From Streptomyces sp. NRRL F-6676 (GTDB taxonomy: Bacteria > Actinomycetota > Actinomycetes > Streptomycetales > Streptomycetaceae): a DNA stretch of 64,000 nt. Below the pieces are notes generated by a model, which saw nothing but the letters and a program-made list of their open reading frames with translations, was not told where the DNA came from and did no database searches. The stretch's first letter is position 1. Each line of letters starts with the position of its first letter. Of this stretch, positions 32,729-35,208 are shown piece by piece. Location of the stretch: the NCBI RefSeq assembly GCF_000725625.1, contig NZ_JOHS01000028.1, positions 9,815 through 73,814 of the forward strand, given 5' to 3'. Position numbers and translations under genes: made by a program.

Positions 32729-33829
32729 TCAGGGGTTGACCGCCAGTTCCAGGTAGGCGGCGAAGAGGACCAGGTGGACGCCGCCCTGGAGGGGGGTGGC
32801 GCGGCCCGGGACCACCGTCAGGGAGCTCACCACGACCGTGAGCAGGAGCAGCACCATGTGCAGCGGGGCCAGGCCCAGGACCAGGGGGCCGGGGAGCCAG
32901 ACGGAGGCGGCGGCCACGGCGGGGATCGTCAGGCCGATGCTGGCCATGGCGGAGCCGAGGGCCAGGTTGAGGCTGGTCTGCACACGGTCGCGGCGGGCCG
33001 AGCGGAGCGCGGCGATGGTTTCGGGCAGCAGCACGAGCAGGGCGATGATCACGCCGACGACGGCGTGCGGCAGTCCGGCCGCCGCCACTCCGGACTCCAG
33101 GGTGGGCGACACCCCTTTGGCCAGGCCGACCACCCCGATCAGTGCGGCGCCGAGCAGCCCCAGGCTGATCCCGGACTCCCGCGCGGACGGCCTGCGGGCA
33201 TGGTCCTCGGCCCGGATCACCTCTCCCTGCCGGGTGATCGGGAGGAAGTAGTCCCGGTGGCGCACCGTCTGGGTGGCGACGAACAGGCCGTAGAGGACGA
33301 GGGAGGACACGGCCGCGAAGGCGAGCTGGGGAGTGGAGAACTCGGGGCCCTGCTTGCTCGTGGTGAAGGTCGGCAGCACCAGGCTGAGCGTGGCCAGCGT
33401 CGCCACGGTGGCGAGTGCGGCGCCGGTGCCCTCCGGGTTGAAGACCGCCGTGCCGTGCCGCAGCGAGCCCACGAGCAGGCTCAGGCCGACCACTCCGTTG
33501 CAGGTGATCATCACCGCCGCGAAGACGGTGTCGCGGGCGAGCGTCGCGCTCTTGTCGCCGCCGTCCGCCATCAGGGTGACGATGAGGGCGACCTCGATGA
33601 CCGTGACGGCGATGGCGAGCACCAGGGAGCCGAAGGGCTCGCCCACCCGGTGCGCGACCACCTCGGCGTGGTGGACCGCCGCCAGGACCGCTCCGGCGAG
33701 CACGACGGTCACCAGGGCCACGACCGGGCCGGGCAGGTCGCGCCCCCAGGTGAGGGCCAGCAGGACGACCGCCAGCAGGGGCACGACGGTCGTCCACCGC
33801 GTGGCGAGCGCCCGGGACCGAACGATCAT
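32729..33829 (-). CDS. chaA: ChaA-type calcium/sodium:proton antiporter
   Basis: A 366-residue membrane protein with about eleven hydrophobic segments. Both alpha-repeats of the CaCA superfamily are present: GEPFGSLVLAIAVTVIEVALI near residue 62, and LPETIAALRSARRDRVQ with SLNLALGSAMASIGLTIP near 275-310. The acidic residues in these repeats bind the cation. It would extrude Ca2+ or Na+ in exchange for H+. It is encoded downstream of terC on the same strand (64 bp gap) and may be cotranscribed, which would join two metal-homeostasis functions. Confidence 0.88.
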   Translation of the reverse strand: MIVRSRALATRWTTVVPLLAVVLLALTWGRDLPGPVVALVTVVLAGAVLAAVHHAEVVAHRVGEPFGSLVLAIAVTVIEVALIVTLMADGGDKSATLARDTVFAAVMITCNGVVGLSLLVGSLRHGTAVFNPEGTGAALATVATLATLSLVLPTFTTSKQGPEFSTPQLAFAAVSSLVLYGLFVATQTVRHRDYFLPITRQGEVIRAEDHARRPSARESGISLGLLGAALIGVVGLAKGVSPTLESGVAAAGLPHAVVGVIIALLVLLPETIAALRSARRDRVQTSLNLALGSAMASIGLTIPAVAAASVWLPGPLVLGLAPLHMVLLLLTVVVSSLTVVPGRATPLQGGVHLVLFAAYLELAVNP

Positions 33830-33893
33830 GACGCGATCGTCGCAGAGACGGGGTGGCCCCGCACGTCCGGACGCCGGTCCGCTGCCGGCACCG

Positions 33894-34895
33894 TCACGCG
33901 TCCACGCTGTTCTCGGCGGCGTCCTCCGTCTCGGCCTTCGCCGCCCCGGCGGCCTCCTGCTTCCGCGAGGCCATGAGGCTGGTGATCGTGGTGACGATCA
34001 GCACCGCGCAGATCACGCCGAGCGAGACCGGTATGGAGATCTCGGGCACGTGCACCCCGGACTCGTGCAGCGCGTGCAGCACCAGCTTCACCCCGATGAA
34101 GCCCAGGATGACGGAGAGACCGTAGGAGAGGTGCACCAGCTTCTTCAGCAGTCCGCCGATGAGGAAGTACAGCTGCCGGAGCCCCATCAGAGCGAACGCG
34201 TTGGCCGTGAACACGATGTACGGGTCCTGGGTCAGGCCGAAGATCGCGGGGATCGAGTCGAGCGCGAACAGCACGTCCGTGGTGCCGATCGCCAGCATCA
34301 CGACGAGCATCGGGGTCATGACCCGCTTGCCGTTCTGCCGGATCCACAGCTTGGTGCCGTGGTAGCGGTCGGCGACACCGAACCTGCGCTCGGCGGCCTT
34401 GAGCAGCTTGTTCTCCTCGAACTCCTCGTCCTCCTCGTCGGCGCGTGCCTCCTGGATGAGCTTCCAGGCCGTCCAGACGAGGAAGGCCCCGAAGAGGTAG
34501 AAGACCCAGGCGAAGCTGGCGAGGATGGCGGCGCCCGCGGCGATGAAGATCGCGCGCAGCACCAGGGCTATGAGGACGCCGACCAGCAGCACTCGCTGCT
34601 GGTACTTCGAGGGCACCGAGAACTTCGCCATGATCAGGACGAAGACGAAGAGGTTGTCGACGCTGAGCGACTTCTCGGTGACGAAGCCGGCGAAGAACTC
34701 CCCCGACGGCCGGCCGCCGCCGAAGACCAGCAGGCCGAGGCCGAACAGCCCGGCCAGCGCGATCCACACGACCGTCCAGATTCCGGCTTCCTTGACGGAC
34801 ACGTCGTGCGGTTTGCGGCCGATGAGGAAGTCGACGGCGATCAGGGCGGCCAGCCCCACGAGGGTGAGAACCCACAGGTTCACGGATACATCCAC
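33894..34895 (-). CDS. terC: TerC family membrane protein (metal exporter, Alx/MntP-like context)
   Basis: A 333-residue protein with about nine membrane helices. The family motifs are FVTEKSLSVDNLFVFVLIM near residue 70 and DVLFALDSIPAIFGLTQDP near 215, with acidic membrane residues. The cytoplasmic loop DEEDEEFEENK is very acidic. TerC/Alx proteins export Mn2+ or load it into secreted enzymes in other bacteria. The GTG at 34895 is preceded by ACCGGAGG 4 nt upstream. The leader contains a candidate yybP-ykoY Mn2+ riboswitch whose 3' stem strand is complementary to that site. The TerD genes lie just upstream. Confidence 0.92.
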   Translation of the reverse strand: MDVSVNLWVLTLVGLAALIAVDFLIGRKPHDVSVKEAGIWTVVWIALAGLFGLGLLVFGGGRPSGEFFAGFVTEKSLSVDNLFVFVLIMAKFSVPSKYQQRVLLVGVLIALVLRAIFIAAGAAILASFAWVFYLFGAFLVWTAWKLIQEARADEEDEEFEENKLLKAAERRFGVADRYHGTKLWIRQNGKRVMTPMLVVMLAIGTTDVLFALDSIPAIFGLTQDPYIVFTANAFALMGLRQLYFLIGGLLKKLVHLSYGLSVILGFIGVKLVLHALHESGVHVPEISIPVSLGVICAVLIVTTITSLMASRKQEAAGAAKAETEDAAENSVDA

Positions 34896-34899
34896 TGCG

Positions 34900-35066
34900 C
34901 CTCCGGTAGTACGTCACGGCAATCTCGGTCGTGTCACCGGAGGTCTCTTCCACCCGTGCCGCCGGAACGCGAGGCGCGTCCGGTGCGCGGGCCGACGCCC
35001 CGGGATCCGATATCGGTCCGTACTGACGGGCACGTCGCGCAGACGGGGAGTACTCCCCTCCGTACG
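34900..35066 (-). promoter_or_regulatory. candidate yybP-ykoY (Mn2+) riboswitch in the terC leader
   Basis: On the minus strand, CGGA-GGGGAGTA (35062-35051) opens the element and GAGACC-TCCG (34947-34938) closes it. CGGAGG/CCTCCG forms a 6-bp P1, and the two loop motifs match the conserved L1 (GGGGAGUA) and L3 (GAGACC) of the yybP-ykoY manganese aptamer. CGTGCC (about 35035) pairs with GGCACG (about 34959) as an inner stem, with a CCGATATCGG hairpin between. CCTCCGGT (34943-34936) is the exact complement of ACCGGAGG (34907-34900), the terC ribosome-binding site. Forming P1 would therefore free the site. TerC genes are classic targets of this class. The match was made by eye; the middle of the aptamer is divergent. 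Confidence 0.65.
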
Positions 35067-35070
35067 GACG

Positions 35071-35100
35071 AGAGTACCCGAATCACCAAGGAAAGGTAAA
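35071..35100 (-). promoter_or_regulatory. candidate terC promoter
   Basis: Minus-strand TTTACC (35100-35095), 18-bp spacer, TACTCT (35076-35071). Transcription would begin near 35064, right at the first base pair of the proposed riboswitch. The surrounding 35080-35160 stretch is much more AT-rich than anything nearby, as expected for a promoter here. Confidence 0.45.
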
Positions 35101-35208
35101 GTGAATGGCAAAGGAAAGATCAAAGAGCCAGTTCAGACGCCTTTACTCGTACTTGGCAAACGTCTCGGAGCGGGCGGGGCAGGCACGGCCAGGGGGCGGC
35201 TCACCGCC

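Follow-up and report, generated by a model that had tools for sequence, protein, structure and literature searches.

The terC leader of Streptomyces sp. NRRL F-6676 is probably a yybP-ykoY-type manganese riboswitch with a translational ON switch

The terC locus and the anatomy of its leader

The window, a stretch of 64,000 nucleotides of Streptomyces sp. NRRL F-6676, contains on its minus strand a terC gene preceded by a structured leader (Table 1). Genes further downstream on that strand encode a Na/Ca-exchanger-family protein (PF01699) and a type II dehydroquinase, and a TerD-domain gene lies upstream of terC. The exchanger-family gene (32729-33829) is located 64 nt downstream of terC and may be co-transcribed with it. 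An open reading frame of the plus strand (33333-35099, 588 aa) spans most of the leader. TerC matches were obtained in 61 of 61 genomes searched, including that of Streptomyces sp. NRRL F-6676 itself.

Table 1 Features of the terC leader and the evidence on which each assignment is based
Feature	Position	Strand	Score, evidence or remark
terC	33894..34895	-	GTG start at 34895; PF03741, 179.9 bits
Shine-Dalgarno (SD) ACCGGAGG, predicted to be sequestered in the OFF hairpin	34900..34907	-	four bases before GTG 34895
Switch strand CCUCCGGU (P1 3' strand CCUCCG plus anti-SD)	34936..34943	-	sequence, cross-locus comparison
Whole R1 match, yybP-ykoY-type aptamer	34937..35064	-	94.2 bits; this leader (L001) is itself among the 29 training rows
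P1 3' strand CCUCCG	34938..34943	-	pairs with CGGAGG 35062-35057
GAGACC: L1 3' side GAGA (34947-34944) and first two bases of P1 3' strand	34942..34947	-	alignments
P1.2 3' strand GGA	34949..34951	-	covariation
P4 hairpin, GCCC 34992-34989 / GGGU 34955-34952, variable loop length	34952..34992	-	alignments, covariation
P3.1 3' strand CGGG(G)CGUCG	34993..35002	-	covariation
P3.2 hairpin GGACCG-AUAU-CGG(A)UCC	35003..35019	-	two-sided changes in relatives
Hairpin CCGAUAUCGG	35016-35007	-	present as in the preliminary description
L3 bulge UCAGUAC	35020..35026	-	A35024 is the counterpart of Mn-binding A41 (L. lactis) / A48 (X. oryzae)
P3.1 5' strand CGACG(UG)CCCG	35027..35037	-	covariation
P1.2 5' strand UCC	35047..35049	-	pairs with GGA 34951-34949
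L1 5' side GGAGUA	35051..35056	-	sequence, same-genus alignment, model alignment
P1 5' strand CGGAGG	35057..35062	-	sequence, switch-strand comparison, covariation
Promoter-like TTTACC-N18-TACTCT	35071..35100	-	TTTACC 35100-35095, TACTCT 35076-35071

All sequence strings named in the preliminary description of this DNA were recovered at their positions on the minus strand, including the 6-bp P1 helix and the switch strand, which is indeed fully complementary to the ribosome-binding site. The inner stem CGUGCC/GGCACG proposed there had to be given up: it occurs in the sequence but lacks conservation, its 3' half falls into the variable P4 loop (four bases in L004), and its place is taken by the conserved, covarying pairings CGACG/CGUCG and CCCG/CGGG, which we call P3. 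The L1 loop of the family has been described as sarcin-ricin-like (PMC6754395).

Among 30 same-genus loci chosen by the TerC protein alone, 29 carry GGGGAGTA and GAGAC at most 330 nt upstream of terC, the exception being L026; the two loop motifs, whose conservation in orthologous leaders the preliminary description had anticipated, are therefore not a chance occurrence in this leader. The 29 leaders with the motifs form alignment A1, in which 99.3% of cells pair and which supports P1 CGGAGG/CCUCCG, P1.2 UCC/GGA, P3.1 CGRCG/CGYCG with CCCG/CGGG, the 7-nt bulge, P3.2 GGAYC/GRUCC and P4 GCCC/GGGU. Covariation in A1 consists of U-A to C-G exchanges in P3.2 (10 of 28 distinct rows), with one-sided changes in P3.1 (12 of 28); P1 and P1.2 are invariant and hence show none. 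Paired cells, changed cells and covariation score all lay above a shuffled control (0 of 500 as high), and the number of pairs with two-sided changes was reached in 56 of 500 shuffles and that of pair types in 500 of 500.

Breadth and covariation outside the genus

A covariance model, R1, was built from 29 same-genus terC leaders. In the order it matched 230 of 245 genomes and in the phylum 42 of 296, 33 of these outside the genus Streptomyces. A pattern scan of named contigs, which had its L3 letters fixed and so provides neither a census nor a test of L3, gave 21 of 22 Streptomyces loci, among the matches listed, with R1 scores of at least 78 bits. Of the 59 R1 matches in that comparison, 55 were used, and the remaining four had E values of 0.6-0.98. 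On a Nonomuraea contig (L143, 1761-2046), two R1 elements lie on opposite strands, back to back with 83 nt between them.

We aligned 40 R1 matches from outside the genus (L076-L115) to the model and found that 95.8% of 1036 cells pair and that 20 of 27 pairs have changed on both sides, in 172 cells; shuffles averaged 43.7 such cells, none of 500 reaching 172, and slid partners gave 10-38. Five pairing and covariation measures exceeded all 500 shuffles. Such figures lean towards structure, as the alignment was fitted to the model and related rows were counted separately; even so, an effect this large, together with the slid control, favours genuine structure. Two-sided changes are found in 3 of 6 pairs of P1, 2 of 3 of P1.2 and 15 of 18 of P3 and P4 together. 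Of the covariation that the preliminary description had sought in P1 and in the anti-SD pairing, that in P1 is absent within the genus, where P1 is invariant; outside it, changes appear both in P1 and jointly in P1 and SD.

For comparisons of individual elements we used 115 loci, of which 97 passed motif patterns and 84 were left after removal of identical tails (52 of the same genus, 32 other); the 18 failing the patterns were L031-L038, L026, the E. coli locus L039 and the R1 matches L092, L095, L097, L100, L104 and L107-L109. P3 split by its bulge, with at least 3 bp on both sides, was present in all 52 same-genus leaders and in 29 of the 32 others, for which shuffling gave a mean of 9.4 and a maximum of 18. 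The base pair adjoining L1 is U-A in 16, C-G in 8, G-C in 3 and an unpaired C.A in 5 of the 32 non-genus elements, and C.A in 45, C-G in 4 and U-A in 3 of the 52 same-genus ones.

These patterns bear on the idea that a protein-coding or antisense constraint on the plus strand underlies the conservation, as the open frame across most of the leader could suggest. GC-rich DNA often contains long antisense frames, and conservation specific to loops, a strongly variable length of P4 and two-sided stem changes fit RNA, so that we give this explanation almost no credence.

The P1/Shine-Dalgarno switch, its promoter and its decay

The strand CCUCCGGU can serve either P1 or the SD hairpin, two pairings that exclude each other. 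All 52 same-genus leaders have both, with a P1 of 5 bp or more and a downstream stem of 6 bp or more. Among the 32 other elements, 27 have a P1 of this length, and in 26 the switch strand can form a downstream stem of 6 bp or more; some of these stems may not involve true SDs, since the finder took the longest stem anywhere downstream. P1 and SD have changed jointly in L084 (GAAGG/CCUUC/GCCGAAGG), and further co-changes occur in L106 (CAGAGG/CCUCUG) and L080 (CCUCCAGC/GCUGGAGG). The leader of Streptomyces sp. NRRL F-6676 itself has CCGGU/ACCGG instead of the usual CCGGC/GCCGG, a two-sided change. Exchanging P1 strands among loci reduced the average paired length only from 5.7 to 4.9, or to 4.4 in combinations with differing 3' strands. 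A further hairpin between anti-SD and SD, CAGCG/CGCUG, is absent from the terC leader of Streptomyces sp. NRRL F-6676; hairpins of at least 4 bp occur there in 43 of 52 same-genus leaders (36 identical; shuffled mean 16.6, maximum 27) and in 10 of 26 others versus a shuffled mean of 8.9, and we do not claim this element.

Unconstrained folding of the terC leader yields the OFF form, with a stability that is not unusual (z -0.88; 33 of 200 shuffles fold as well). By calculated energy, OFF is more stable than ON in 52 of 52 same-genus leaders (mean 10.8 kcal/mol) and in 24 of 26 others (mean 8.2), energies that cover 78 of the 84 leaders, six with a stem below 6 bp being left out. For the terC leader the preference amounts to 15.1 kcal/mol in secondary-structure energies that include neither metal nor tertiary contacts, and metal alone could hardly reverse it at equilibrium. 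A difference of this size points to a choice between P1 and SD during transcription, in line with the P1 3' strand ending about 30 nt before the SD.

Taken together, the terC leader is very likely a yybP-ykoY (Mn2+) riboswitch with a translational ON switch, on an mRNA that starts at about 35064. The family, target gene and translational mechanism put forward in the preliminary description gain support from R1, the L3 loop, covariation and the co-change of P1 and SD. According to this model, the terC mRNA would open with the aptamer; at low Mn2+, CCUCCGGU would pair with the Shine-Dalgarno sequence ACCGGAGG and block translation, and at high Mn2+, metal held between L1 and L3 would lock P1 (CGGAGG/CCUCCG), which would take up the CCUCCGGU strand, free the SD and allow synthesis of TerC, which probably exports Mn2+ or loads metal. 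We infer both Mn2+ as the ligand and ON as the direction of the response. In X. oryzae, Mn2+ stabilises the P1.1 switch helix (PMC6754395), and a review describes yybP-ykoY elements as either freeing the ribosome-binding site or antiterminating.

A search for terminator-like sites in the terC leader found none, which fits translational control. The leader might instead act on transcription, through Rho access, or on mRNA stability, the SD hairpin being a side effect, and the OFF state would indeed expose untranslated terC mRNA to Rho. In Vibrio parahaemolyticus, moreover, mRNA coverage of mneA and terC rises with Mn and the yybP-ykoY-leader profile is unchanged (PMC13274385). Both the lack of a terminator-like site and the role of the SD as one half of a conserved switch hairpin speak for control of translation, and we regard action through Rho or stability as unlikely.

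The candidate promoter TTTACC-N18-TACTCT of the preliminary description is present and kept in the same genus: CTTTAC-N17/18-TAnnnT was found in 48 of 52 non-redundant same-genus leaders, with a distance of 8 nt between the -10 element and CGGAGG in 44 of the 48. A sigma-70 consensus scan found nothing. A conserved CTTGG and a second CTTT-CC-like copy lie around the -35 element (35081-35130) and might form a regulator site.

Fifteen genomes of the order gave no R1 match; one of them has no TerC match and two have only a paralogue of 42-43% identity. The remaining 12 keep terC with altered leaders, which we classed by eye. In L237, L240, L242, L243 and L244 the aptamer core is replaced by a short unrelated stretch, and the P1-like flanks and the anti-SD/SD hairpin stay; these are possibly relic switches, perhaps set by temperature. 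L238, L239 and L241 retain only promoter and SD, with L026 as a fourth case, and L245 and L247 have other sequence upstream of terC. In L236 and L246, which fall on different branches of the terC tree, 8 and 7 nt separate the promoter -10 element from the start codon, and by this spacing their terC mRNAs are probably leaderless. With filters off, the best R1 score across 14 R1-negative loci and L026 was 14.2 bits. In the terC tree of 42 loci, 14 of whose 39 inner branches are weak, the SD-only group is one clade (99/97) close to the rows that have lost the core, and four changes between intact and not intact are needed, three of them forced by well-supported branches. The leaderless forms give independent support to the promoter call, and the whole series, down to the apparently leaderless mRNA, supports both the promoter and the borders of the module.

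The five core-less genomes also show that the hairpin pair can persist alone, as would be expected if the element were a plain conserved 5' UTR hairpin or an RNA thermometer without ligand. Such a hairpin would leave unexplained why L1 and L3 are near-invariant beside strongly varying stems, and we consider it very improbable for the terC leader.

If the riboswitch reading holds, TerC of most sampled streptomycetes is placed under a probable Mn2+ switch. Streptomycetes are a group that secretes many enzymes. The TerC proteins of B. subtilis supply exported enzymes with Mn by loading it into them (PMC10550928). A broader reading, which we offer tentatively and with considerable doubt, combines an actinobacterial, P2-less three-way-junction subtype of the Mn2+ aptamer missed by current Rfam, a one-shot co-transcriptional translational switch and ligand-free relics. 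The switch would effectively be one-shot because the OFF fold, once made, is about 11 kcal/mol more stable; as the core decays, P1/anti-SD hairpins would persist, ligand-free or temperature-set, until leader and switch are finally lost together. The series from aptamer to bare hairpin, bare SD and apparently leaderless mRNA provides natural mutants for studying riboswitch loss.

Relation to known yybP-ykoY riboswitches

The window gave no Rfam match at gathering thresholds (Rfam 15), and the terC leader no match to the family model RF00080 even at E up to 10. RF00080 was equally silent on 20 phylum loci related to the terC leader (E up to 1), on eight non-actinobacterial loci with R1 matches (E up to 0.01), on 18 further pattern loci at its gathering cut-off of 45 bits, five of which are clear R1 matches, and, above the cut-off, on 121 same-genus genomes. 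The preliminary description had named the lack of a significant match as grounds for refutation, and RF00080 gives no such match; the same model, however, gives the E. coli mntP leader (L039, 1962-2058) 41.6 bits, below its own cut-off, so that its silence on the terC leader is no refutation and 45 bits in Rfam 15 does not mark the border of the family. We therefore dropped RF00080 as a judge of membership; the current model has a sensitivity gap. In our reading of the printed RF00080 alignments, the 3' half of the model fits poorly. R1, for its part, missed the E. coli mntP leader at E values up to 10. A sucA match on the plus strand (16.5 bits, cut-off 40) is at chance level.

At the L3 position that contacts Mn, all 29 rows of A1, which were not chosen by L3, have A, and so do all 39 of the 40 model-aligned elements outside the genus that have a base there, one row being gapped; A in 83 of 83 elements located by the pattern finder is no test, as the pattern demanded it. 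Likewise, alignment A2 is not counted as a test of L1, its rows having been chosen by L1 motifs. In the published structures, L3 reads UCA41AU43UC in L. lactis and ACA48U49ACU52 in X. oryzae, and N7 of A41/A48 touches Mn2+ (PMC6754395).

Eight further same-genus elements (L031-L038) score 47.7-57.7 bits with R1 and 26.0-30.5 bits, below the cut-off, with RF00080. The gene that follows belongs to the GDT1 family (PF01169) in all six tested (L032, L034-L038) and is a Na/Ca exchanger after L033. R1 thus also finds the GDT1-gene elements that RF00080 weakly recognises, which links the two groups. A survey of genes after other elements covered 33 of the 55 R1 matches used above and the 32 non-genus elements, 65 in all, 62 of which gave an ORF, with two frames offered where possible; TerC was found in 45 of the 107 candidate ORFs and P-type ATPase in 9, and there were single matches to LysR, solute-binding and pectate-lyase families. 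In L084 and L113, the element precedes a Peptidase M50 gene with a CBS domain, an unusual target for a Mn2+ riboswitch.

The stretch from GUA to L3 measures 13-28 nt in the 84 phylum elements and is equally short, 20 nt, in elements of Lysobacter and Verticiella; that of E. coli mntP has 31 nt and contains a 6-bp hairpin. Some 4-bp hairpin could form in it in 20 of 52 same-genus leaders and 14 of 32 others, a count confounded by bases of P3. Beside the supported P3, the stretch looks too short for a P2, and this arm of the four-way junction seems to be absent.

An aptamer of this family with L3 and junction unlike the crystallised forms could sense another ion, or Mn2+ over a shifted range. 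Position 4 of L3 is free (T in 19, G in 12, C in 5 and A in 3 of 39), the GUA-to-L3 stretch is short with P2 apparently missing, and the gene after L033 is of the Na/Ca-exchanger family, all of which would be in keeping with a different ligand. Yet the metal-contacting A is kept, the L. lactis L3 UCAAUUC, seen in a Mn2+-bound structure, is nearly identical (PMC6754395), and the targets are mainly TerC and P-type ATPases, along with GDT1-family genes in the six cases tested. We therefore think a different ion or range quite improbable and retain Mn2+ as the proposed ligand.

In the openly licensed papers covered by searches for a streptomycete yybP-ykoY or manganese riboswitch, we found no account of such an element, of a missing P2 arm or of the decay series, and no streptomycete expression or binding data. 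There is a precedent for a terC riboswitch in an actinobacterium: the C. glutamicum cg2157 (terC) leader has been published as yybP-ykoY, listed in 2013 as RF00080 with 49.13 bits from Rfam and with a mapped start at 2,043,151, beside the predicted element start at 2,043,157 (PMC3890552). That leader is likewise an actinobacterial terC leader, from another genus, compared here through its published listing; two other Corynebacterium loci with weak R1 matches (L156, L177) gave no Rfam 15 match. The GDT1-gene elements (L032, L034-L038) share with the terC leader that R1 finds them (47.7-51.3 bits), and differ from it in an L3 of the ACAC/ACAUAC type, a P1 ending in CCUUCGG and the gene that follows.

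Compared to the yybP-ykoY reference (RF00080; L. lactis, X. oryzae, E. coli mntP), the terC leader stands apart in its lack of an Rfam 15 RF00080 match and in the apparent absence of the P2 arm, and its L3 follows the L. lactis type and not that of X. oryzae and E. coli. It shares with that reference the L1 strands GGGGAGUA and GAGACC, the 7-nt L3 bulge with its metal-binding A, P1 as the switch helix, and targets of the TerC and exporter type.
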